From: Haloferax marisrubri | GTDB taxonomy: Archaea > Halobacteriota > Halobacteria > Halobacteriales > Haloferacaceae | DNA length: 64,000 nucleotides | Direction: 5' to 3' | Assembly (NCBI RefSeq): GCF_001469875.2 | Contig: NZ_LOPW02000010.1 | Coordinates: forward strand, 443,942-507,941 | Translations under genes and position numbers: made by a program | The notes under the pieces: model-generated | The model's database searches: none | What the model saw: the letters and a program-made list of their open reading frames with translations, nothing else | Told to the model about the DNA's origin: nothing | Shown here: positions 5,504 through 18,649 of the stretch, piece by piece | How positions within the stretch are numbered: the stretch's first letter is position 1 | Layout of the letters: each line of letters starts with the position of its first letter

Positions 5504-6757
5504 TTATTCGCGTCGCACCGCGATGAGCGCGATTGCGACGAGCGCAATCAGCGCGGCGGTGACGCCGAAGCCGGGAATGACCGAGTCAGTCGTCGTCGGC
5601 TCTCCGGTCGTCGTCTCGTCGTCGAAGCCGGGCGTTCCGTCGTCGGACGTGGTAGTGTCGTCACCACCGTCGTCGGAGGTGGTGGTGTCGTCACCACCGT
5701 CGTCCGCCGTCGTCGTCACGGCCTGCGTCGACGTCACGGCGAAGTACGAGAAGCCGGGCGTATCGACTTCCAGCACGACCCGTCCGTCGCCCTCGCTCAC
5801 GACGCGCGTGTCGAGGGTCTCCCACTCACCGCTTTCGTCGTTGTAGCGTTCGACCGCGAGGTCTTGCGCCGTAATTCCGAGTTCGTCGAGTCGGTCTTGT
5901 CTCACGCTCAGCGTGATGGTCGACGGCGAATCGCGGAGGGAGTTCGGGACGTCGATTTGGACGTACCCGATTGCCGCGTTCGACGGTCGACCGACGGTTC
6001 CGGGGAGGCTCGTCCGTTCGCGGACGATGACCTCGCCGGTACCCTGGCTCCCGAACGCCAGGTCGACGTTCGTCACGGTGGAGCCACCGGGGAGCGATGC
6101 GCTGACTTCCGAACCGTAGAAGAGCCGGACGCTCTCGTAGGTTCCGCTGTCAGGGGCACCGCCGCCGCCACCACCGCCGCCGCCACCGCCGCCACCGCCA
6201 CCGCCACCAGACGGTGCTTCGGTGGTCGTCGGCGTGGACGGCGTCGGCGTCGGCGTACTGCCGTCGATGTTGTTCACGTCAACGGTCGTCGTGTCGCCGC
6301 TGTGCGACAGGAGGTTCCCTCTCGTGTCCGTAATCGATTCGACGGTGACGTCGATGGACGCGGCGGTGTCGCTCCCAACGGACTGCGCACTCACCGTCAG
6401 GTCCGCCAGCGAGATATTTCCGGTCGAACCGGAGGTCTCACCCGTGTACCCGACGACGGTGAGCTTTCCGTTGCCGTGGTCGGTCGTCTCCACGTTGAAC
6501 CGGGAGTTCCCGGCAACCGAGACGTCGACCACGCTGTCGTCGTAGCTGATGTTCAGTTCGTACGACCCGATACCGTCCGCGTCTTCGACGTTGTACGCGG
6601 TGAGCGTCGCCGTCGAGTCTGCAGAGCGCTCGTCGATCGAGCCGACGGCGTCGACCGAGACGGTCTTCGCAGTCGCGGCACCGGCCGCGCCGACGGCGAC
6701 CGTGCTGACGAGCATGGCGGTGCACATCGCTACCGCGAGTAGCTGTTTCGTGTTCAT
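5504..6757 (-). CDS. Cohesin-domain surface protein with PGF-CTERM anchor
   Basis: After a signal peptide (about residues 1-30) comes a roughly 140-residue beta-rich domain with the cohesin pattern: GIGSYELNISYDDSVVDVSV, then a strand ending in ISLADLTVSA. A run of 17 glycines follows (bases 6158-6208), then a PGF-pre-PGF-like domain ending TPGFSYFAVTS. The tail has an Asp/Thr repeat (DDGGDDTTTS) and a PGF-CTERM signal, PGFGVTAALIALVAIALIA plus RRE, the target of archaeosortase ArtA. The cohesin call rests on pattern and on the adjacent dockerin gene 3 nt upstream in the operon. It is the likely cell-bound scaffold for the dockerin-bearing proteins. Confidence 0.85.
   Translation of the reverse strand: MNTKQLLAVAMCTAMLVSTVAVGAAGAATAKTVSVDAVGSIDERSADSTATLTAYNVEDADGIGSYELNISYDDSVVDVSVAGNSRFNVETTDHGNGKLTVVGYTGETSGSTGNISLADLTVSAQSVGSDTAASIDVTVESITDTRGNLLSHSGDTTTVDVNNIDGSTPTPTPSTPTTTEAPSGGGGGGGGGGGGGGGGGAPDSGTYESVRLFYGSEVSASLPGGSTVTNVDLAFGSQGTGEVIVRERTSLPGTVGRPSNAAIGYVQIDVPNSLRDSPSTITLSVRQDRLDELGITAQDLAVERYNDESGEWETLDTRVVSEGDGRVVLEVDTPGFSYFAVTSTQAVTTTADDGGDDTTTSDDGGDDTTTSDDGTPGFDDETTTGEPTTTDSVIPGFGVTAALIALVAIALIAVRRE
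6158..6208 (-). repeat. Poly-glycine codon run (17 Gly) in cohesin protein linker
   Basis: On the plus strand this is an uninterrupted run of 17 gcc/acc triplets, encoding consecutive glycines on the minus strand. It separates the cohesin-like domain from the PGF-pre-PGF-like domain. Runs of near-identical triplets are prone to length change by slippage, and any whole-triplet change would keep the frame. Confidence 0.9.
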
Positions 6758-6760
6758 GAG

Positions 6761-7960
6761 TTATGCACCCCCGATGGTGTAGTCGGTATCACGGTTGTTC
6801 TCGCTGTACTGCTGGACGAGCATCGCGTCGACCGCGTTGACCTGCCCGTCGCCGTTGACGTCGCCGTAGGCGGCGTCAGAGCCGCTCGAGGCGGCCTGTG
6901 CGATTTCGGACGCGTCGTCCGCGTCGACGTCGCCGTCGAGGTCGACGTTACCGAGTTCGTAGCCTTCGAACTCCACGGAGACCTGCGTTCCGACGCCGGT
7001 CTGGTTGAGTTGGACCCGCGTCTCGCCGTCGATGGTCGTCTGCTCGACGAGGTTCGCGTCGGTCGTCGCGAAGCCGTTTCCGCGGAGCGGTTTGTCGCTC
7101 GGCGGTGCGATGTCGTACACGACCGTACCGTCACTCTTCGAGATGGTCACGGACACCGTCGTGTTGACGGGCGTCTTCGCGTCCCCGTCGGACTCCGACG
7201 TCGAGTCGCCGACGAGCGTCGGTTCCTCACCGACGTAGGCGACCGGCTGGATGCTGTCGTCGCCGTCGACGAAGGTGACAGACGCCGTCTCAGAGATGCC
7301 GACACCGACGGTGAACTCGGGGGCGTCCGTCAGGCTCGAGCCGACGGTGTGGTCGCCTTCGAGCACGGTCTCGCTGACCGAGTCGGCTTGGCTCTGACCG
7401 TCGAGGACGACGGACGCGCCAGTCACGGCGTTTCCGTCGTTGTCCACGACGCTCGCGTTGACCGTCCCGACGCCGCTCACGTCGAGTTGTTCGCTCGTGC
7501 GAACGTTGTTCGGCTCGTTGTACAGCGGGCGCACGTCAGCGGTCAGCGACGTGGTCCCCGCCGACGAGACGGTCACGTTGAAGTGGTAGGTCCGGGATTC
7601 GCCGGCCGGCACCACTTCGCCCGTGATGAGCAGGGCGTCGCCGGTCGAAATCGTGCTCTGCTGGACGGTCGCGTCTCGTAGGTCAGATGTGTCGTTCACG
7701 TACACCGCGTCTTCGGCCCCGTTCGGGAGTCCGACCGGACTGCTAATCGGAACCTCCACGAGCGGGTTGAGGAGCGCGGTGTCATTGTTGTTCGTAACCG
7801 TTACTGCAATCGTCTGGTTGCCGTCCGTGCTGAGGTCGTCCGGCGCGTCGATGGCGACGCTGAACGGGTCCGCAGCGGACACAACACCCGGACCGACACC
7901 GAACGATATCGATGCCACGACCAGGAGGGCAGCCAGTGTCATTGAGAGTTTTCGTGTCAT
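6761..7960 (-). CDS. Secreted protein with C-terminal dockerin type I domain
   Basis: A signal peptide (TLAALLVVASISFGVGPGVVSA) precedes CARDB-like and regulatory-like beta domains with several N-glycosylation sequons. The last 63 residues (337-399) are a dockerin type I module with two calcium-binding loops of the EF-hand kind: DLDGDVDADDA and DVNGDGQVNAVDA, each followed by a short helix. Dockerins bind cohesins. The gene lies 8 nt after the thioester-protein gene and 3 nt before the cohesin-protein gene, so it is the middle gene of a three-gene operon. It could bridge the other two products on the cell surface; that is inference. Confidence 0.88.
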   Translation of the reverse strand: MTRKLSMTLAALLVVASISFGVGPGVVSAADPFSVAIDAPDDLSTDGNQTIAVTVTNNNDTALLNPLVEVPISSPVGLPNGAEDAVYVNDTSDLRDATVQQSTISTGDALLITGEVVPAGESRTYHFNVTVSSAGTTSLTADVRPLYNEPNNVRTSEQLDVSGVGTVNASVVDNDGNAVTGASVVLDGQSQADSVSETVLEGDHTVGSSLTDAPEFTVGVGISETASVTFVDGDDSIQPVAYVGEEPTLVGDSTSESDGDAKTPVNTTVSVTISKSDGTVVYDIAPPSDKPLRGNGFATTDANLVEQTTIDGETRVQLNQTGVGTQVSVEFEGYELGNVDLDGDVDADDASEIAQAASSGSDAAYGDVNGDGQVNAVDAMLVQQYSENNRDTDYTIGGA

Positions 7961-7968
7961 CGTTCTCC

Positions 7969-10900
7969 TCAGTTGGCGTCCTCGTACTCTTGTTCGTTGA
8001 CGAGCTGTTCGGATTCGGCACCGACAACGACTCGAGTCGAGTTCTCGGCGGTCAGCGTGATACTGCCGGTCTGACGAAGCGTTTCGAGTTCGTCAGTCGT
8101 GAAGGACACCACGGCCGTCGGCGTGTTGCCGTCGACGGTGACGTTCTTCGAGACGGTCGAGTTGATTTCGACCGTCACCGTCTGCGAACCGGCGTTACGC
8201 TGGTCCGCCGTGGTGAGGGCGTCGATTGCGACGCCGGTCGCACGCGTGTTCCCGAAGGAGCCGCCCTGCTGGTAGATTCCAACGAGGTAGCCGACACCAT
8301 CGGAGACGGTATCGTTGTTCGCTGCCGTGTAGCCCTCCGCGGCGTTCAACGCGATAATCGCGTTGCCCGTCGCACGGGCCTTCTCACCGGTGTTGCTCCA
8401 GTACGGCGAGTTCGTGTAACCGGTCCACGAGCCGTCGTCGTGCTGGTTGGCCACGAGCCATTGGGTACCACTGTCGAGCGCCATCGACACGCTGCCCGAA
8501 CTCAGTTCGCTGTTGACCTGCGTCCGGAGGGTGTCGCTGTCGTTGACCGCGGCGAGCGCCTGCACCGCGTACGCGGTCGCCTGCGCTTCTCTCGAACCGG
8601 CTTCCCAGCTACCGTCGCTGTTCTGCCGTTCGATGAGGTGGACCGCGGCGTCGACGCTGAACTCGTCGGCGGCCGTCTGTGCGGTCGCGTTGAGGTCGTC
8701 GCCAGCGCGGTCGATTGCGACCGTCGTGTAGGCGGTCGCGGAGGTTCTGTCGCGGAGGAAGTACCCGTTCGGACGGACACTTCCGTCGTTGCGCTGCTTG
8801 TCTGCCAGCCAGAGCACCGCACCGCTCTGGTTGATCCGCTTGAGACTGGCGTTCACGTCCGTGCGGTTGCTCTGCACCGCGTCGTCGGAGACGGCGCTCG
8901 CGCCCTGCAGGGCGTAGATGGTGTAGAACAGGTCACCGCGCGGGTTGTTGCCGTACATGCTCCACGCGCCGTTGTCGTGCTGGGAGATGTTGAAGTACGT
9001 ACCGGGCGTGGGCTCGTCGGCGAGCTTACTGATACCCGCGCTGATCGTGCTGTTCGCACGGTCGCGGTCGTAGTTGCTCGGGATGTCGCCGTCGCGGTAG
9101 TACTGGTCGGTCCGGAGCGCGGACATCATCTGGGTCGTCGTCTGTTCGACACACCAGTAGGGGTAGGAGAACAGGTATTCGAGACCCTGAAGCGTCCGTC
9201 CGTCCGTCCCGGCCTGCACGGTCACGTTGAGCGTGTGTTCGTAGGTCGTCGCGTCCGAGATGTTGAGCGCGAGCGACTGCGTCTCGCCCGCGGACTCGAG
9301 CGTCGTCGCGTTCGTCGTCGTGTAGCGAACCTTCGGCACCGTGACGTTGGTCGTCGCGGACGCCGTGTCGCTCTCGCCGAACGCTTCGACGGTGACGTCT
9401 ATCTGCGCGTCGTCGATGTCGGCGGTCGTGTTGCCGCGAACCTTCCACGCGGCCGACCCGCCGTTGCCTGTCGCACGAACCTGTTTCTCAGCGGTCTGCC
9501 CGTCGACGAGTTCGAGCCCCGAGGGGAGCGAAACCGTCGCGTTGACGTTCGACGGGTAGTTCGTGTTGAACTCGGCGAGGACGGTGACAGTCGAGTTGTT
9601 CACGACCGTCGAGGGCACCGAGACGTCGTCGTCTTCGATGCTCAGCGTGTACGGCTTCACCGTGACGTCCTTCGTCGACTCGTTGTTGTCGAACGGGACG
9701 CCGTCGGAGACGCTCGCACGCACGACCTTGTCGCCACCCGTCGCGAAGTTGTGGGTGACGCGGGTCGTGTTGGGCTGTTGGACACCGAGGTTTCCGATGG
9801 TGATGTTCTCGGTCGTGCCGTCGTCGTAATCGACGGTCACGTTGAACTCACCGGTCGGCGCGGTACCGTTGTTCTTCGTGAACACGACGAGCGTCGCGCT
9901 CTGGCTCTGGAGCACCGTGCTCTGTCCCTGGATACGGACCGTCGGGTCGGCGTAGACCACGCGCGTGGTGTTGACCGCCTGGTTGTTCGTCTCGTCCGTC
10001 TCGGGAATCTCGTTCGCCGGGTCGACCGTCGCGGTCACCCGCGCGTTACCCTGTGCGAGGGTTCCGAGGAGTTCCTCGCTGGCGAACTCGGTCAGGTCGT
10101 AGCTGAGCGTCGTCTCGTTGTTCGGCGCGTCGGTGCTGTCGGAGAGGTTGCCGGTGTACTTCGTGTACGTCTCCGTCTCGCCGTTTGCGGCCTCGACCGT
10201 CAGGTTGACCGTCGCGTTCGAGACGTTGACGAGACCGTCGTTCGAGACGGTCACGGAGGCGTTCACGCCGTCGTTGAACCGCTGTCGCCGTTCGACGTCG
10301 AGTTCGGGCGAGAGGTCAGCACCCTCCGCGAGGCGGAAGGTGAGGTTCGCACCGCTCGTGTCGACCGTGAGGTTCTGCCAGTACGTCCGGTTGACGAACC
10401 GGTCGTTCTCCGGCGGCGTGACACGGACTTCCATGTCGCCGCGGACCTCGATGCCGGTCTTGTCGCCTTCACCGGCCGGGAAGAGCCCGTCGGCGTTGGA
10501 CTTGTACGCGACACCCGAACGCGTGCCGTCGTTGTTGTGCTGGACCGCAATCGTCGCGTTCTCCACCGGGTCACCGTTCTGGTCGACGACGGTGACGTTC
10601 AGCAGCCCCGCGTCGGGGAGCGTCGTGTTTCCGACGTTCAGAACCCGCTCGGTTCCCTGCGTCGTGTAGAGCGAGAAGATGTCGGGCGACCCGTCGCGCG
10701 GGTGGTCGCCGCTCCAGCCGCTCGCTCCGTCCTGCACGTACGCAATCGTCTGCGTGGTTCCGTTAACGACCGGAACGAGGAACCGACCGTTCTCGTCGGT
10801 GAACGTCTGGCCGACGAACCACGGCTCGTCGCCGGGGTTCGTGCGGCTCGTGTAGACGAGGTCGTCCACGGCGGCGCTCCCGTCGGGCAGTTTGACGTAG

Positions 10901-13578
10901 CCCTTCGCGAGCGGACCGCCGGTGACGCGCGCGTCAACTTCGTTGTTCGTCTCGCTCGCCTCGGCGATTTCGTCAGCCGGGTCGGCGACGACGCGAACGG
11001 AGTAGTTCCGCGCGTCAACGCGTGCGAGCGTGGTGTTGATAGCGACCGACTCGCCCGCGGCGAGGTCGACCGACCGACTGGTGAGTTCTTCCCAGGACCC
11101 ACCGTTGTCGGCTTTCGCTTCGACGATGACGTCGACGCCCGTCGCCTCGACGTTACCGCGGTTTTCGACCGTCGCGTTGACCGGCACGACGCCTTTCGTG
11201 ACGTTCGTTTCGACCGAGAGCGTCGGCGTGATGTCCGGTGCCTTCACGGTCACCGTCTCGGGTGAGAGGTCACCGATACGGACCGTGTGCTCACCGAGTT
11301 CGAGGCCGGTGACGGTAAAGGAGACCGTCTTCGATTCGCCCCCGTCGAGCGTCACCGACTTGGTCTGGGTGATTTCGTCGTCAACCGAGAGCGTCGCGGT
11401 GAACGTGTCCGACACGTCGCCGGTGTTCGTCACCGTCGCGCTCGCGTTGACATCGTCTTCGAGTCCGATTTCGGTCGCGTTGACCTGCAGGTTCGAGTAC
11501 TCGAGGTTCGCCGGCTTGTCGACAGTCACGGTCTGGGCGGGAAGCCCGTCGATCGCGATCTGGTACGTGCCGGGACCGAGATCCTTCTCGAAGGTGACCG
11601 TCGTGGATTCGTCGGGCGCGAGCGTGCCGTTCATCCACTCGACGGTCTGACCGTCGATGACGAGCGACGCGTTGTACTCGCCAGCGCCGGTTCCGTTGTT
11701 GCTGACATCGGCACTCACGACCGTCGTCTCACCCGGTGAAACCTGACTCGGAGCCGTGAAGTTCGAGTAGACGATGTCCGGGACGCCGCTGACCTCGATG
11801 GCCGTCGGCGTCGCGTCGTTGACCGTCACGTCGTACGTGCCCGGTGCGTCGAAGCTCAGTTCGAACTGCTCGACGACGGTCTCGCCTTCGCCGACGAACA
11901 CCGTCTTCGACTCGACGGTCTGACCGTCACGCTTGAGGTCGACCGTGAAGTTCCCACCGAAGTAGTCGGTGTTCTCGATGGTCGCGTTGACCGTCACCGT
12001 CTCGTCCGTCGTCACCGACGTCGACGAGACGTTGTAGTCGGTGAGTTCGATGTTCGGCGTGATGACGTACAGGTCGACGCTCGACGAGATGTACGCGGTT
12101 CCGTCGGACGGCGCTTTCGTGGCCGTCGCGGTTCCGGACTCGACGGGCGTGAACGTCACTTGACCGTTCGAATCGGTCGTGAACGTCTTGCCGTTGTACG
12201 TCACGTTCGCACCAGCGACGCGGTCGCCGGTGTCTGCCCGGGTGACGTTGAGCGTGACGCTCTCTCCCTGCTGGATTTCGACCGCGCTCGGCTCGATGTT
12301 GAGCTGGACGCCGTCGACGAGCTCGACGGTCGCCTTGTTGCTCAGCGTGGCCGTCCCGTTCTGTGCGGTCGCGAAGTGAACCACCGAGTAGTTACCCGGG
12401 GTGAAGTTCTCCGTCGTGCGAAGCGTGACCGTTTCCTTCGGCCCGCCGACGGTCCCGTTGATACTCGTGTAGATGACCGTGTCGTCGGTCTGCGTCACGC
12501 TGTCTTCACCGGCGAGCCGCGAGAGCAGCGAGACGATGTTCGTGTTCCCGTTGTAGCGACTCGCGGGAAGCGTGCTCCCGGCGAAGTTCGTTCCGGGCTT
12601 CACGTCGGTCGCCCCTTCGATCCGGTCGATGGACGACTGAATCTCCTCGACTTCGCTCCCGTTGAGCTGAATCGTCTGCTGTTGGTCGCCGAGGACGGAC
12701 TCGTTCAGCAGAATCGTCGTGTGCGAAACGTCGTCCGTGCCCAGGTTCGACGCGTCCACGTCGACGTTCACGTCGTTACCGACCGCGGCGACCTCCGGCG
12801 GCGTCACGGTCGACCGACCGTCCTGCACGAGGAAGTGGTCGAATCCGACGACCGTCACGTTCCCTTCGGCGGTGAGGTTACCGGGCGACGAGCCCTGCAC
12901 CAGTCCCGGGTCGGTGCTGTTCTCGACGAGGACCGTCGCGAAGATGTACTGCCCGGACTCGTTGGGCGTGAATCTGAAGTTCTGCGTTCCGCTCTGCCCG
13001 GTGAACTCGTCGACGATTTCGGCGTTCGTGTCCTTGCTCGTGGTGAGCAGTTTGCCGATATCGCTGATGCCACCCGGTTGCTTCGCGCCCTCCTTCAGGC
13101 GGACAGCGACCAGTTGGACTTTCTCCCCGTCGACCACGCTACTCTGCCCGGCTTTGCCCGGATTGAAGGTCGCGGTGATCTCCGTCTTGTTGAAGACGTA
13201 GATTCGGTTTTTGTCCAAACTGGTCTCCAGGTCGCTCGTCCCGACGAAAATGTTCGTGTTCCGTATCTCGTGGCTGATGTACGGAACGTCGTCGAGTGTG
13301 ACAAACTCGCTCGACGCCGCCGGGTTATTCGGCCGGAGTGTTAGCAGCGAATACTGCCACACGGAGACGTTCTCTCCGGCGTCTATTTTCAACTCGTCAC
13401 TCACCGCAGGTGTTGTCGCTCCATCTATCGGAGCGGAACCCCCTCCGCTGAGTGAGGCCGATGCGTCTGCTGAGGTGAGGGTGCTCGCGCTAACGGGCCC
13501 TACCACCATGGATAGAACCACAACCCCCGTCAGAACTAAACTCAAGAGTTTAGTCCTGTTGCTGGTCGTAGGCCTCAT
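7969..13578 (-). CDS. Giant secreted CARDB / alpha-2-macroglobulin-like protein with thioester motif
   Basis: This is a 1869-residue secreted glycoprotein. The signal peptide ends near Ala31. CARDB-like domains lie at about 510-590, 600-690, 690-780, 780-890 and 1090-1205, with carboxypeptidase-regulatory-like repeats at about 890-1046. Residues about 1460-1780 match the thioester domain of bacterial alpha-2-macroglobulins. The key motif is PYWCVEQTTTQM, with Cys1476 and Gln1479 in the CxEQ arrangement that forms the internal thioester. Helix pairs with QNSDGSWE, QHDDGSWTGY and QQGGSFGN repeats follow, as in alpha/alpha toroids. A short beta domain ends the protein. I see no anchor, dockerin or cohesin in it. 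It probably traps proteases or attaches covalently to targets. Confidence 0.88.
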   Translation of the reverse strand: MRPTTSNRTKLLSLVLTGVVVLSMVVGPVSASTLTSADASASLSGGGSAPIDGATTPAVSDELKIDAGENVSVWQYSLLTLRPNNPAASSEFVTLDDVPYISHEIRNTNIFVGTSDLETSLDKNRIYVFNKTEITATFNPGKAGQSSVVDGEKVQLVAVRLKEGAKQPGGISDIGKLLTTSKDTNAEIVDEFTGQSGTQNFRFTPNESGQYIFATVLVENSTDPGLVQGSSPGNLTAEGNVTVVGFDHFLVQDGRSTVTPPEVAAVGNDVNVDVDASNLGTDDVSHTTILLNESVLGDQQQTIQLNGSEVEEIQSSIDRIEGATDVKPGTNFAGSTLPASRYNGNTNIVSLLSRLAGEDSVTQTDDTVIYTSINGTVGGPKETVTLRTTENFTPGNYSVVHFATAQNGTATLSNKATVELVDGVQLNIEPSAVEIQQGESVTLNVTRADTGDRVAGANVTYNGKTFTTDSNGQVTFTPVESGTATATKAPSDGTAYISSSVDLYVITPNIELTDYNVSSTSVTTDETVTVNATIENTDYFGGNFTVDLKRDGQTVESKTVFVGEGETVVEQFELSFDAPGTYDVTVNDATPTAIEVSGVPDIVYSNFTAPSQVSPGETTVVSADVSNNGTGAGEYNASLVIDGQTVEWMNGTLAPDESTTVTFEKDLGPGTYQIAIDGLPAQTVTVDKPANLEYSNLQVNATEIGLEDDVNASATVTNTGDVSDTFTATLSVDDEITQTKSVTLDGGESKTVSFTVTGLELGEHTVRIGDLSPETVTVKAPDITPTLSVETNVTKGVVPVNATVENRGNVEATGVDVIVEAKADNGGSWEELTSRSVDLAAGESVAINTTLARVDARNYSVRVVADPADEIAEASETNNEVDARVTGGPLAKGYVKLPDGSAAVDDLVYTSRTNPGDEPWFVGQTFTDENGRFLVPVVNGTTQTIAYVQDGASGWSGDHPRDGSPDIFSLYTTQGTERVLNVGNTTLPDAGLLNVTVVDQNGDPVENATIAVQHNNDGTRSGVAYKSNADGLFPAGEGDKTGIEVRGDMEVRVTPPENDRFVNRTYWQNLTVDTSGANLTFRLAEGADLSPELDVERRQRFNDGVNASVTVSNDGLVNVSNATVNLTVEAANGETETYTKYTGNLSDSTDAPNNETTLSYDLTEFASEELLGTLAQGNARVTATVDPANEIPETDETNNQAVNTTRVVYADPTVRIQGQSTVLQSQSATLVVFTKNNGTAPTGEFNVTVDYDDGTTENITIGNLGVQQPNTTRVTHNFATGGDKVVRASVSDGVPFDNNESTKDVTVKPYTLSIEDDDVSVPSTVVNNSTVTVLAEFNTNYPSNVNATVSLPSGLELVDGQTAEKQVRATGNGGSAAWKVRGNTTADIDDAQIDVTVEAFGESDTASATTNVTVPKVRYTTTNATTLESAGETQSLALNISDATTYEHTLNVTVQAGTDGRTLQGLEYLFSYPYWCVEQTTTQMMSALRTDQYYRDGDIPSNYDRDRANSTISAGISKLADEPTPGTYFNISQHDNGAWSMYGNNPRGDLFYTIYALQGASAVSDDAVQSNRTDVNASLKRINQSGAVLWLADKQRNDGSVRPNGYFLRDRTSATAYTTVAIDRAGDDLNATAQTAADEFSVDAAVHLIERQNSDGSWEAGSREAQATAYAVQALAAVNDSDTLRTQVNSELSSGSVSMALDSGTQWLVANQHDDGSWTGYTNSPYWSNTGEKARATGNAIIALNAAEGYTAANNDTVSDGVGYLVGIYQQGGSFGNTRATGVAIDALTTADQRNAGSQTVTVEINSTVSKNVTVDGNTPTAVVSFTTDELETLRQTGSITLTAENSTRVVVGAESEQLVNEQEYEDAN

Positions 13579-13600: not shown

Positions 13601-13610
13601 GATAAAATAC
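13601..13610 (-). promoter_or_regulatory. TATA box of the thioester/dockerin/cohesin operon
   Basis: On the minus strand this reads GTATTTTATC, centred about 27 nt before the ATG at 13578. That spacing puts transcription start at or next to the start codon, the leaderless arrangement usual in haloarchaea. The divergent lipoprotein gene has its own box (ACATTAAAGA at 13721-13730), so the 177-bp spacer holds two promoters. Confidence 0.6.
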
Positions 13611-13755: not shown

Positions 13756-14241
13756 ATGCGAAGACGCCGGTTCCTTACTGCGTTCTCTGCGATGGTCGTC
13801 GGAACTGCCGGCTGTACACAGGAGTCCGAAACCGAGGTATCAACCCAAACACAAACGACGCTCCCGACGAGAACGCCCTCACCGTACGTCGAGCAGGCGG
13901 ACGAGTTTCGGTCGTTCCTCCAACAAGAAGAGATTTCCATCGTCGAACTCCTCCCGCAACCGCCGGCGAACGCGGTGGAACTCACGTACGTCTCGAACGA
14001 AGACCAGTACGAGGAAGTCGGCGGGGAAATCGGCACGATTGCCGGCGGCTTCTTCAATCGGGTCGCAAACGGCTGGGAGGCCGAGCGCCTGAACGCGGTG
14101 GTCATGGACAGCCCCGAGTCCCGCTTCGGGACGTGGTACGCGAAGTCGTCGTGGTTCGAGGAGTACCGAGACGGCGAGATCTCTTCGAACGAACTCTCGC
14201 TCAAAGTGTTGAACACGCTCTCGCGCGCGGAAGACGCGTGA
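13756..14241 (+). CDS. Predicted Tat lipoprotein, unknown function
   Basis: The N-terminus MRRRRFLTAFSAMVVGTAGC is a twin-arginine-like signal with a lipobox ending at Cys20. A Thr/Ser-rich linker (to about residue 40) leads to a compact alpha/beta domain of about 120 residues with the phrase VELTYVSNEDQYEEVGGEIG. Small haloarchaeal lipoproteins with this layout are common and uncharacterised. It is divergent from the thioester operon and 41 nt before the DUF1616 gene, which has its own TATA box. I cannot assign a function. Confidence 0.8.
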   Translation: MRRRRFLTAFSAMVVGTAGCTQESETEVSTQTQTTLPTRTPSPYVEQADEFRSFLQQEEISIVELLPQPPANAVELTYVSNEDQYEEVGGEIGTIAGGFFNRVANGWEAERLNAVVMDSPESRFGTWYAKSSWFEEYRDGEISSNELSLKVLNTLSRAEDA

Positions 14242-14282: not shown

Positions 14283-15308
14283 ATGACCTCCGACACGGAC
14301 TGGCTATCGCTCGTCCCGCGCTCGGTTCGCGCCGCCCCTGCGGACCTACTCGCGGTCGTGGTGGTTGCCGTCCTCACCTGCGGTGCAGTCACCCTCCCCG
14401 GCGTCCGCGACACCCCGCTTCGGGTCGTCCTCGGCCTCCCGTTCGTGCTTTTCGTCCCCGGCTACGCAGTTATCGCCGCGCTGTTCCCGGAGTCGGGGCC
14501 CTCGGTCGCCGCGAGCGGCGACGCCGACGCGGCCGACCGGACGGGAATCGACGGTATCGAGCGGGTCGCGCTCTCGTTCGGGACGAGCATCGCCCTCGTC
14601 TCGGCGCTCGGACTGCTCCTCAACTTCACGCCGTGGGGGCTTCGACTCGTTCCGATTGTCGTCGCTATCGGCCTACTCACGGTCGCGGCCGCGGTCGTCG
14701 GGTCGCGTCGGCGGGCCGCCCTCCCCGAGAGCGAACGTTTCGGCGTCGCGGTCCGGTCCAGTCTCCCAAATGACCCGAACCCCTTTTCGTCCGGGTCGCG
14801 GACTGACGCGGCTTTCGCCGTCGTGTTGGTGCTCTGCCTCGCGGTCGCCGTCGGAGTGGGCGGATACATGGTCGCCGCTCCCGGGTCCGGGGAGTCCTTC
14901 TCCGAGATATACGTGCTGACGGGGAACCAATCCGGGGACCTCGCCGCGGAAGACTACCCGACGGAACTCACTGCGGGGGAGCCCACGTCGCTCACCGTCG
15001 CCGTCGGCAACCACGAGGGGGCGGCCACCGACTACGTCGTCGTCTCGCAACTCCAGCGCGTCCGGGTCGCCAATAACACGACGACGGTCCTCGAACGCGA
15101 GGCACTCACCCGGTACCGACCGTCGGTCGAGGCCAACGCGACGTGGCGGACTGAACACGCGGTCACGCCGACGATGACCGGCGACCGACTCCGACTCACT
15201 TACCTCCTGTACGAGGGGTCGGCACCCGCGGAGCCGACGGCTGCAAACGCCTATCAGTCGGTCCATCTCTGGGTGAACGTGACGGCTCCGGACTCCGCCT
15301 CCTCCTGA
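14283..15308 (+). CDS. DUF1616 family membrane protein (paralog 1)
   Basis: A DUF1616 protein. Paired N-terminal helices surround the family stretch PLRVVLGLPFVLFVPGYAVI. Helices follow at about residues 95-145, and another at about 177-200 precedes an extracytoplasmic beta domain to the C-terminus containing LTVAVGNHEGAATDYVVV. The protein is very similar in order and sequence to the one at 26538. The family has no established activity that I know of; members sit in envelope and glycosylation neighbourhoods in archaea. A TATA box (TTTTAG at 14252-14257) supports the start at 14283. Confidence 0.88.
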   Translation: MTSDTDWLSLVPRSVRAAPADLLAVVVVAVLTCGAVTLPGVRDTPLRVVLGLPFVLFVPGYAVIAALFPESGPSVAASGDADAADRTGIDGIERVALSFGTSIALVSALGLLLNFTPWGLRLVPIVVAIGLLTVAAAVVGSRRRAALPESERFGVAVRSSLPNDPNPFSSGSRTDAAFAVVLVLCLAVAVGVGGYMVAAPGSGESFSEIYVLTGNQSGDLAAEDYPTELTAGEPTSLTVAVGNHEGAATDYVVVSQLQRVRVANNTTTVLEREALTRYRPSVEANATWRTEHAVTPTMTGDRLRLTYLLYEGSAPAEPTAANAYQSVHLWVNVTAPDSASS

Positions 15309-15320
15309 CCGACGCCGCTA

Positions 15321-17555
15321 TTACGCCCGGATTTCCGCGAACAGCGCCTGTACGTCCACGACGTTGACGCGACCGTTTCCGGAGAAGTCGAACGCCTCCG
15401 GCGTGCCTTCGACCGCCTCGGCGTTGCGGTTGGCGAACAGCGCCTGCGCGTCCGCGAGTGTCACGTTTCCGTCTCCGTTGACGTCCTCGTAGCGTCCGTC
15501 GCCGTCGGGGTCGGTCGGCGGCGCTGTTTCGCTCGTCACGGTACGCGGGAGCGCGGCCGTTTCGTTGACCGCGCTCCACGTGTCGAGCATCCCCGCGCCG
15601 ACGGCTGGTTCCGTCTGTGGGAGCGGTTGCGCCGTTGACCGGAGAACCCGCGTCACGTCGGCGCGGGTCGCGTTCGGGTTCGCGTCGAGGAGGAGCGCGA
15701 CCGTGCCGCTCACGTGCGGGGCAGCCATCGACGTCCCGTCGAGCGTGACGTACGGTTCGGCCTCGTCGCGCTGTGACGTCGAGTACGCCGACGTGACGTT
15801 TTCTCCCGGAGCGATGAGGGCGATGCCGGGCCGCCGGTCGTCTCCGAACCCGACCGGGCCGTGACTCGAAAACGAGGTCACGCCGGACGTCGTCTGTCGC
15901 GCCGCACCGACCGTAATCGCGCCCTCCGACGCGCCGGGACTCGCCACCGAGCGGTTTCCGAGCAACCCGGCGTTGCCGGCCGAGATGACCGCGACCGTGT
16001 CCGTCGTCGTCACGAGCGAGTCGACGTACCGGGAGAACTGGTCGCTCCCGTTCGACGGGTAGTACGCCGTCGCCCGGTACCGATACGACACCGACTCGGG
16101 GTGGTCGCTCTCGACGGCGAGCGACCAGTTCCCGGGGGTTTCGATTGCCGTCTCGTTCCGAGGGGTGAACCTCTGGTACGCGATTGCTTCCGGCACGCGG
16201 CCGTCCTCGAACCACCAGCCCGCATCGACGCCCCTGAGCGGGGTTTCGCCCGCGGGGTCTCGAAGCGTCACCGAGAGGTTCCGCATGACTTCGGCCCGTC
16301 GCTCGTCGCTTTGAATCCGCTCGCCGCCGACCTGCGTCGGTTCGACGAGCACGTAGACGTACGCCGGTTTGAACCCGTCGTACCGCGCGCTGGCTTGGTA
16401 CACGCCGGACCCGTTCGCGTAGAGTTCGATGTCGCTCGCTCCGGTCCCGTTCGGCCGGACCGCCCGCTCGCCGCGGTATTCGAGCGGGAACGGACTGGCA
16501 CCGAGGCTCGCGGAGACCACGTCCGCGCGGTTCTCGGCGCTCCACTCCATCGCCGCCATCACGTCCGACATACTGCCCTGTCCGTCCTCGTCGAGGGCGC
16601 GCGCGCCGAACAGCCGTGCTTCGGGTGCGACGCCGACCGATTTGTTCGCGTCTGCCCGCCCGGCGACCGTCCCCGCGACGTGCGTGCCGTGACCCCACGG
16701 GTCGAACGGCTGGGAGGTGTCGCCCACGAAGTCCTTCCACCGGACGACCTGCCCGCGGAGCGCCGGGTGGCTGTCGTCGATGCCGCTGTCGATGACGCTG
16801 ACGTTCACGCCCGCGCCGGTGATTCCACGGTCCTGTACGTCGTCGGCACCAATCGATTCGAGGTTCCACGATTCCGTTCCGCTCGCCGCGACCCGCGCGC
16901 TGTCCGGTCGGACCGTCTCGCCGTACGCGGACAGCGAGTCCAGATACGCGGCGACGCTCGGCGACACCGACCCCGTCGCGTAAATCGGCCGGTCGTAGTG
17001 AATCGCGGAGACGTTCGGCATCCCACCGAGCGTTCGCACGACCGCGGGCGTCGCCTCGACGGCGAGCGCGTTCCGCGTCCAGAACGGCGTCACGTCTGTG
17101 ACGTTGCCGCTTTCCCGTCGCGCGTCGAGGAATTCGCGCACGTCGGACTGCGTTCGGTTGGTCGTCTCTCTGAGTCGGGCGCGCGTCGTCTCAGACTCGC
17201 CGGGCGCGTCGGCCGACTCGCGCGAGGGGTCGTCGAAGACGAGGATGACCGGGACCAGTTCGTCCGACGCCGCGCGCGACAGTTGATACGCCGCCGCGCC
17301 CGAGAGAACGCCGTCCCCGGTCGTCTCGTCGTCGGGCGCAGTCGTGTTGTTGGTCGTCTCGTCGTCGGGCGCAGTCGTGTTGTTAGTCGTCGCGAGGTCG
17401 GCGGCGGCCGCTGTGGCCGCGCCCCGCTCGGACCCGCCTAACTCGGCATCGGGCGGGCGCGCCGCTTCGGAGACCGGTGCGAGCGTCGCGCTCAGAAGCA
17501 GACAGAACACGATGCCGACGACGGCGGCCCGCGTCCCTCGTTGCGTTCGAATCAT
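15321..17555 (-). CDS. Secreted subtilisin-like (S8) protease with C-terminal dockerin
   Basis: A signal peptide (residues 1-31) is followed by a low-complexity NNTTAPDDET tandem repeat and an I9-like propeptide (about 90-195). The S8 catalytic domain has Asp256 (VIDSG), His289 (HGTHVAGT), oxyanion Asn528 (ISAGNAG) and Ser609 (GTSMAAPHVSG). All catalytic residues are present, so it should be active. A roughly 150-residue beta-rich insert (about 356-507) splits the domain between His and Asn. The C-terminus is a dockerin with loops DVNGDGNVTLAD (691-702) and DFSGNGRVNVVD (723-734). It is divergent from a cohesin-like gene, its probable surface partner. Confidence 0.92.
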   Translation of the reverse strand: MIRTQRGTRAAVVGIVFCLLLSATLAPVSEAARPPDAELGGSERGAATAAAADLATTNNTTAPDDETTNNTTAPDDETTGDGVLSGAAAYQLSRAASDELVPVILVFDDPSRESADAPGESETTRARLRETTNRTQSDVREFLDARRESGNVTDVTPFWTRNALAVEATPAVVRTLGGMPNVSAIHYDRPIYATGSVSPSVAAYLDSLSAYGETVRPDSARVAASGTESWNLESIGADDVQDRGITGAGVNVSVIDSGIDDSHPALRGQVVRWKDFVGDTSQPFDPWGHGTHVAGTVAGRADANKSVGVAPEARLFGARALDEDGQGSMSDVMAAMEWSAENRADVVSASLGASPFPLEYRGERAVRPNGTGASDIELYANGSGVYQASARYDGFKPAYVYVLVEPTQVGGERIQSDERRAEVMRNLSVTLRDPAGETPLRGVDAGWWFEDGRVPEAIAYQRFTPRNETAIETPGNWSLAVESDHPESVSYRYRATAYYPSNGSDQFSRYVDSLVTTTDTVAVISAGNAGLLGNRSVASPGASEGAITVGAARQTTSGVTSFSSHGPVGFGDDRRPGIALIAPGENVTSAYSTSQRDEAEPYVTLDGTSMAAPHVSGTVALLLDANPNATRADVTRVLRSTAQPLPQTEPAVGAGMLDTWSAVNETAALPRTVTSETAPPTDPDGDGRYEDVNGDGNVTLADAQALFANRNAEAVEGTPEAFDFSGNGRVNVVDVQALFAEIRA
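17322..17387 (-). repeat. Tandem 30-bp repeat encoding NNTTAPDDET twice
   Basis: Two nearly identical 30-bp units lie back to back near the 5' end of the protease gene. They encode the ten-residue unit NNTTAPDDET twice, adding two NNTT glycosylation sequons between the signal peptide and the propeptide. The boundaries are approximate. Copy number could vary between strains without breaking the frame. Confidence 0.75.
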
Positions 17556-17797: not shown

Positions 17798-18649
17798 ATG
17801 TCGACTAGACTGGCTCTCGTCGTCCCGCTCGGTCTTCTCGTGCTCGTCAGCCTCGGCCTCGGCGTCGCCCCCGCCGGGGGAGTGACAGCGCAGGACAACG
17901 TATCGGTCGTCGTGACGCCGGCGTCCCAAGACGCCGAAGTCGGGTCCACGACGACCTACGACCTCGTCGTCCGCGGCCTCGACGGCGGCGGTGTCGGCGC
18001 GGCCGACGTGACGGTCAGCGTCGACGAGTCGGTCGCTACCGTCGCTAACGCGTCGTTCGTGCCCGACCCCGGGCTGAACGAGGTCACGTACAGCGACGGG
18101 CGCTCGCAAGTTCGCCTCTACGGGGCGCTCATCGACACGTCGCAGTCGGGGTCCGTCACTATCGCGACCGTCACGGTCGAGAGCAGCGCGAACGGGACGA
18201 CCCCAATCGGGGTGGACGTGACTGACGTCGGGAGCGAAGCCGGTGTCAGCTATCGAATCACGGCCGTCGAAAACGGGAGTCTCGTCGTTGGTGCGGGGAG
18301 TTCGAACACGACGACTGCGGTAGAACGCACGACTAGTGAGGGTTCGTCGTCGCAGGACGGCGGCGACGGTTCCGATTCCGACTCCGAATCGACCGCCGGC
18401 GAGTTGACGGTCTCGGCGATGGGCGGCGCTGATGCGGACGCGAACGACACGAGTTCGCCCGTCGCGTCGTCGTCATCGACGGCGAGCGCCACGACGGACG
18501 GACGGGACGAACCCGCAGAGTCCACCACCGAACCCGCCACGTCAGCGATACCGACGGAGACGGCCGCCCCCGGCCCGTCGATACTTCTCACTACGGTCTC
18601 TCTCCTCGTCGCCGGTCTGTACTTCTCGGTGCGAACCCGCTCCGATTGA
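17798..18649 (+). CDS. Cohesin-like domain protein with C-terminal membrane anchor
   Basis: A signal peptide (LVVPLGLLVLVSLGLGVAPAGG) is followed by a beta-sandwich of about 135 residues with the haloarchaeal cohesin pattern. It has VGSTTTYDLVVRGLDGGGVG, then ADVTVSVDESVATV, then VTIATVTVES. A Ser/Thr/Asp-rich stalk of about 100 residues leads to a membrane helix, PSILLTTVSLLVAGLYFSV, and a basic end. This is a second cell-anchored cohesin candidate. It is divergent from the dockerin-bearing protease gene across a 242-bp spacer, which suggests a matched pair. The cohesin call is from sequence pattern only. Confidence 0.75.
   Translation: MSTRLALVVPLGLLVLVSLGLGVAPAGGVTAQDNVSVVVTPASQDAEVGSTTTYDLVVRGLDGGGVGAADVTVSVDESVATVANASFVPDPGLNEVTYSDGRSQVRLYGALIDTSQSGSVTIATVTVESSANGTTPIGVDVTDVGSEAGVSYRITAVENGSLVVGAGSSNTTTAVERTTSEGSSSQDGGDGSDSDSESTAGELTVSAMGGADADANDTSSPVASSSSTASATTDGRDEPAESTTEPATSAIPTETAAPGPSILLTTVSLLVAGLYFSVRTRSD

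Follow-up and report, generated by a model that had tools for sequence, protein, structure and literature searches.

We analysed a window of 64,000 nucleotides (nt) from Haloferax marisrubri (assembly GCF_001469875.2, contig NZ_LOPW02000010.1, positions 443,942 to 507,941 of the forward strand; all coordinates below are those of the window), in which three consecutive genes encode a protein with a thioester domain (TED), a dockerin protein and an anchored cohesin protein. Considered together with a dockerin-bearing subtilisin-like protease (subtilase) and a second anchored cohesin encoded close by, the best explanation as a whole is a single cell-surface complex for protease-coupled covalent capture (probability about 0.62). 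Judged from the sequences, the surface-docked architecture is likely, and the protease-coupled capture role is the less certain part, which we put forward tentatively. A preliminary description of this DNA, made from the letters alone, had suggested that the three proteins could form a surface complex holding the thioester protein; the cohesin match and the conserved linkage reported here lend support to that suggestion.

Organization and domains of the operon

The three genes lie on the minus strand, separated by 8 and 3 nt; the coordinates in the preliminary description were confirmed exactly. The single TATA box proposed there corresponds to GTATTTTATC, which is identical at five orthologous Haloferax loci; its spacing to the first ATG fits a nearly leaderless archaeal transcript. 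Each of the three products starts with a hydrophobic, signal-peptide-like stretch (identified by eye). The features of the operon are the following (lengths in amino acids, aa).

13601-13610, minus strand: TATA-like element GTATTTTATC, 23-32 nt before the first ATG of the operon
7969-13578, minus strand: thioester protein, 1869 aa (signal peptide, N-terminal module at about residues 30-430, CARDB repeats, TED)
8212-9192, minus strand: TED, residues 1463-1789 (PF07678 TED_complement, E 1.4e-8)
9142-9153, minus strand: thioester motif C-V-E-Q, residues 1476-1479 (its C and Q do not vary among 20 archaeal TEDs)
6761-7960, minus strand: dockerin protein, 399 aa (signal peptide, Ig-like domains, C-terminal dockerin)
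6806-6946, minus strand: type I dockerin, residues 339-385 (PF00404, E 1.2e-12; loops DLDGDVDADD and DVNGDGQVNAVD)
5504-6757, minus strand: cohesin anchor protein, 417 aa (signal peptide, cohesin, Gly/Thr linker, PGF-pre-PGF, PGF-CTERM)
6260-6676, minus strand: Cohesin domain, residues 28-166 (PF00963, E 3e-5, 24.7 bits; fold match of an AlphaFold2 model)
5732-6004, minus strand: PGF-pre-PGF domain, residues 252-342 (TIGR04213, E 1e-13)
5510-5578, minus strand: PGF-CTERM archaeosortase sorting signal, residues 394-416 (TIGR04126, E 9e-9; PF18204, E 2e-4)

The thioester domain of the 1869-aa protein matched PF07678 with 34.6 bits (cut-off 22), and its CARDB repeats were recognised with an E-value of 1e-23. 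The 20 archaeal TEDs that we aligned are diverse (22-44% identical to the query), and all Haloferax loci and 17 of the 17 non-Haloferax loci had the C-x-E-Q motif. The profile built from these 20 domains retrieved CD109, C3, TEP1, alpha-2-macroglobulin (A2M) and bacterial A2M from the PDB, and also squalene-hopene cyclases, which have the toroid fold in common with the TED. Macroglobulin (MG) domains were not found at the cut-off in the 1869-aa protein by the Pfam scan; among its relatives, MG2 was detected in the one from locus L083 and MG4 in the one from locus L082.

The N-terminal module (window 12289-13488) is common to TED-less Haloferax proteins (L045-L049) of 2257-2261 and 771-776 aa, which have PGF-CTERM ends and a conserved neighbourhood of their own. 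The idea that the proteins of 2257-2261 aa fuse the anchor to the thioester protein was considered and rejected, as these proteins lack a TED and have only the N-terminal module, CARDB and PGF-pre-PGF in common with the operon.

In the 399-aa protein, the two F-hand calcium loops lie at residues 340 and 367, in agreement with the two clear calcium loops of the preliminary description. A profile of its relatives matched almost exclusively dockerins in the PDB (best match 2ccl_B, E 3e-4), and PF00404 was matched by all 13 haloarchaeal relatives. The protein begins with an Ig-like domain. We do not claim MG8 homology for it: in the Foldseek list a C4 chain came only 22nd, amid many Ig-like proteins, and profiles gave no support.

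For the 417-aa product, Cohesin was not listed by the Pfam scan of the whole protein but was listed when residues 28-166 were scanned alone (24.7 bits, cut-off 24.1), and a PF00963 search of the organism's own genome pointed to the same place. Orthologs scored 25.1 (L056) and 27.2 (L109), or marginally under the cut-off (L082, L083, L084). Sequence-profile searches of the PDB ranked cohesins at the top with E-values of only 0.02-0.1, and therefore a fold search was carried out with an AlphaFold2 model built from 14 relatives (core pLDDT 84-93). At E<=0.001 this gave 24 PDB matches, every one of them a cohesin (best E 7e-7), including that of Archaeoglobus fulgidus (2xdh). The cohesin that the preliminary description had suspected at residues 30-170 is thus matched by both profile and fold; the single-chain antibody (scFv) chains that a single-sequence PDB search returned for the product were discarded as an artefact of its Gly linker. 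As that description had also noted, the anchor is carried by the cohesin protein alone: within the trio, PF18204 and TIGR04126 matched only there, and archaeosortase A (ArtA) is encoded in the same genome (TIGR04125, E 1e-101).

Conservation and fusion in other archaea

Orthologs with more than 90% identity occur in four other Haloferax genomes in the order TED, dockerin, cohesin, and a second Haloferax set with the same order (36-45% identical) is found in H. gibbonsii, H. prahovense, H. sulfurifontis and H. denitrificans. In all 15 haloarchaeal loci examined, the TED gene or region was followed by the dockerin and then by the anchored cohesin; the six that are not from Haloferax (Halorarius litoreus, Halorarius halobius, Halobacterium bonnevillei and three others) had the same order, with genes overlapping or touching. 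The TED profile matched 11 of the 392 genomes of the order and the dockerin-protein profile matched the identical 11, neither of them occurring alone (Fisher test, p 1e-21 by genome and 2e-8 by genus, the latter being the fairer value because the genomes are related). The linkage on which the preliminary description had made its proposal depend therefore extends beyond the strain to other genera and, in the form of a TED-dockerin fusion, to other archaeal orders.

In H. bonnevillei the TED (residues 1439-1904) and the dockerin protein (1923-2320) form one polypeptide, and the cohesin gene comes next. The same fusion was observed in 11 of 11 loci from other orders of the phylum, where a duplicated dockerin-like repeat stands at the end of the protein; one of these loci belongs to an Archaeoglobus-like family and ten belong to genomes with methyl-coenzyme M reductase, which are methanogens or their kin because they possess this enzyme. 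The gene after the fused protein encodes a product of 229-271 aa in which a cohesin-like domain and a Ser/Thr/Pro linker lie between a signal peptide and a C-terminal membrane segment, and these small proteins aligned with the haloarchaeal cohesins in profile-profile comparison (98% probability, E 1e-13). Because TED and dockerin are fused in other archaea, the 1869-aa and the 399-aa protein are most simply read as the split version of one protein. The large N-termini of the TED proteins (Ig-like, PKD, beta-propeller) vary by lineage; the TED, the dockerin and the cohesin are constant.

In methanogen and Archaeoglobus-like loci (L117:2928-6446, L116:3495-7001, L119:12359-16456 and similar), another large surface protein with PEGA, PKD or Ig-like domains follows the small cohesin, and one of these proteins carries PGF-CTERM; it is possible that they are a fourth member of the complex.

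A dockerin-bearing subtilase beside the operon

The trio of the preliminary description stands, although a second dockerin protein and a second anchored cohesin in the same window had been overlooked:

15321-17555, minus strand: dockerin-subtilase, 744 aa, dockerin at about residues 682-744 (PF00082, E 2e-48; PF00404, E 1e-7)
17798-18649, plus strand: second cohesin anchor, 283 aa (cohesin-like domain, Ser/Thr linker, C-terminal transmembrane segment), divergent from the subtilase

The S8 catalytic D/H/S motifs of the subtilase are intact (DSG at 256, HGT at 289, GTSM at 607). The second cohesin gave a weak PF00963 match in the genome search and can be aligned with other cohesins. The position of the subtilase is conserved at the orthologous Haloferax loci; elsewhere, a subtilase lies directly upstream of the TED in 8 of the 11 non-haloarchaeal loci and adjacent to it in H. 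bonnevillei (9 of the 17 non-Haloferax loci, in a survey that left out the upstream sequence of the G356 locus). These TED-linked subtilases usually carry cohesin and/or dockerin modules. In genome G117 the subtilase is fused to the TED itself (S8 at 236-693, MG4, PKD, TED at 2217-2666), and the subtilase of the window is 43% identical to this protein over 611 aa. In five genomes, no S8 gene was found besides that of the upstream subtilase (two listed pieces being one open reading frame), so that adjacency by chance is very unlikely.

The stretch from the subtilase to the TED operon holds genes for a DUF1616 membrane protein (14283-15308, plus strand) and a small lipoprotein-like product (13756-14241, plus strand), an order that is conserved in the Haloferax orthologs.

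Proposed mechanism and alternative explanations

By analogy with the known families, the 417-aa protein would be fixed to the membrane via PGF-CTERM and display its cohesin, into which the dockerin of the 399-aa protein would plug in a calcium-dependent manner. The 1869-aa protein is expected to bind the 399-aa protein, since these two halves, separate here, make up a single polypeptide elsewhere, and the TED would thus be displayed at the surface. In this domain an internal Cys-Gln thioester is probably present and could form a covalent bond with a nucleophile of the target. The dockerin-subtilase would dock on the neighbouring cohesin anchor (17798-18649) and most likely either triggers the thioester, in a complement-like way, or acts with the TED on captured targets, which are probably foreign proteases, cells or viruses. 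Several observations weigh against parts of this scheme. The cohesin score barely exceeds the cut-off and several orthologs fall marginally short of it; several calcium loops are degenerate in the dockerin-like repeats of the methanogens; profile comparison revealed no MG8 or A2M-receptor homology in the 399-aa protein, so that its equivalence to the C-terminus of A2M is hypothetical. As to the protease, the TED loci of Halorarius, G370, G532, G477 and the second Haloferax set had no subtilase within reach. In the window, two opposite-strand genes separate the subtilase from the TED operon, and the subtilase and the 399-aa protein carry dockerins of different sequence types.

A more specific form of the capture reading, which we regard as rather unlikely to hold in every part, is a complement-like archaeal module in which the docked subtilase cuts and activates the docked thioester protein for covalent tagging or capture of foreign cells, viruses or proteases; cohesin-dockerin joints would serve as its assembly system, with one polypeptide in methanogens and two genes in most haloarchaea. 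The main rival, a little easier to credit and still short of probable, is a protease trap: a surface inhibitor similar to A2M would be cut by foreign or stray proteases, trap them covalently and shield the S-layer, and the subtilase would be a protease under the control of the TED. The matches of the TED profile to A2M, CD109 and bacterial A2M (YfhM) and the MG2 or MG4 domains of some relatives are consistent with such a trap, as is the archaeal motif YPYGCVEQTTS, which we take to resemble the motif of bacterial A2M. However, the 1869-aa protein has CARDB repeats in place of MG matches at the cut-off, no bait region was recognised in it, and an inhibitor has no need of a subtilase that is encoded in the operon or fused. 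That recurrent subtilase is also left unexplained if the protein is an adhesin or surface cross-linker, whose thioester would, like that of the thioester adhesins of Gram-positive bacteria, bond with glycans or proteins on adjacent cells, on surfaces or on the S-layer and for which cohesin and dockerin would be a replaceable tether. Both the surface anchoring and the lineage-variable N-termini beside a constant TED, dockerin and cohesin would suit this function; the TED is, however, of the A2M/complement fold family and not of the TIE adhesin type, and we consider an adhesin somewhat doubtful.

Two further explanations concern single elements of the proposed complex. The genes might be merely linked, the anchored cohesin serving other dockerins and the 399-aa dockerin docking elsewhere, as the genome encodes seven dockerin proteins and several additional cohesins. 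This appears improbable, since the 399-aa dockerin differs in type from the other six, invariably stands beside the same cohesin subtype, and keeps this pairing in two paralogous Haloferax sets. The match to squalene-hopene cyclases would agree with a TED that is a structural alpha/alpha toroid scaffold with no working thioester, but the motif YP..C.EQ with Cys and Gln invariant in sequences so divergent goes far past any constraint of the fold, and we consider such a scaffold very improbable.

Relation to known systems

Archaeal A2M/TEP homologs with CxEQ were described in 2021, including Haloferax gibbonsii WP_050459478.1 (Makarova et al., PMC8416519), and it was reported that halobacterial TED genes often precede an uncharacterized gene, arCOG14565, and have endoproteases nearby. 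Those proteins agree with ours in the secreted TED, the CxEQ motif, the Ig-like domains and their occurrence in Halobacteria and Methanomicrobia; the docking pair, the split or fused TED-dockerin and the subtilase fusion are absent from the description, which mentions neither cohesin nor dockerin. The statement of the preliminary description that a thioester partner was, to its author's knowledge, undescribed calls for a qualification: archaeal TED proteins as such had been described, and it is their cohesin-dockerin tether that we did not find described. Cohesin-dockerin proteins of ANME archaea have been described with no thioester cargo (PMC9012536). No report combining a dockerin with a macroglobulin was found in the literature searched, most subscription papers lying outside that search. 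A2M/complement TED proteins and cohesin-dockerin docking are each known, and we could not find their combination described.

Bacterial A2Ms (YfhM/ECAM) are alike in the TED match; unlike the archaeal proteins, they are lipoproteins (according to the PDB molecule names) with MG domains, whereas the archaeal anchoring is by a separate PGF-CTERM cohesin protein. Complement C3/C4 and insect TEP1, which have activating serine proteases, belong to the same TED fold family and have C-x-E-Q, and in archaea too a serine protease is genetically tied to the thioester protein. The archaeal protease is, however, a subtilase, the N-termini are mostly CARDB, PKD or propeller, the tether is cohesin-dockerin, and activation is a proposal. 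With cellulosome pairs and the A. fulgidus cohesin (2xdh) the operon has the cohesin fold and the type I dockerin sequence in common; it differs from cellulosomes in its non-cellulase cargo and in the single cohesin on the anchor. The known Archaeoglobus cohesins were considered as the same system and rejected: Pfam cohesins occurred in 8 of 30 sampled Archaeoglobaceae genomes, mostly with no TED, and a full TED in only 1 of the 30.

Outside cellulosomes, cohesin-dockerin pairs are widespread in archaea, and we know of no account of the logic of their cargo. Order-wide evidence from linkage, fusion and co-occurrence supplies one such cargo, namely a thioester protein accompanied by a protease, and suggests what the uncharacterized gene that follows the published archaeal TED proteins may do. 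It also offers a testable case of archaeal surface protein chemistry akin to complement and macroglobulins, in a genus with established genetics.

Further dockerins and cohesins in the genome

All seven dockerin proteins of the genome are encoded on contig C10 at 282-462 kb (L038, L039, L040). In five of the seven, including 5'-nucleotidase and MG2- or beta-helix-containing proteins, a cohesin-like domain lies immediately N-terminal to the dockerin, and by their domain order these tandems could chain head to tail. Two of these proteins adjoin an anchored cohesin of their own (L039:6907-7863, L039:13984-14964). Among the 392 haloarchaeal genomes, 125 (from 41 of the 95 genera) matched the anchored-cohesin profile, so that surface assembly by cohesin and dockerin seems to be widespread among haloarchaea, well past the TED system.
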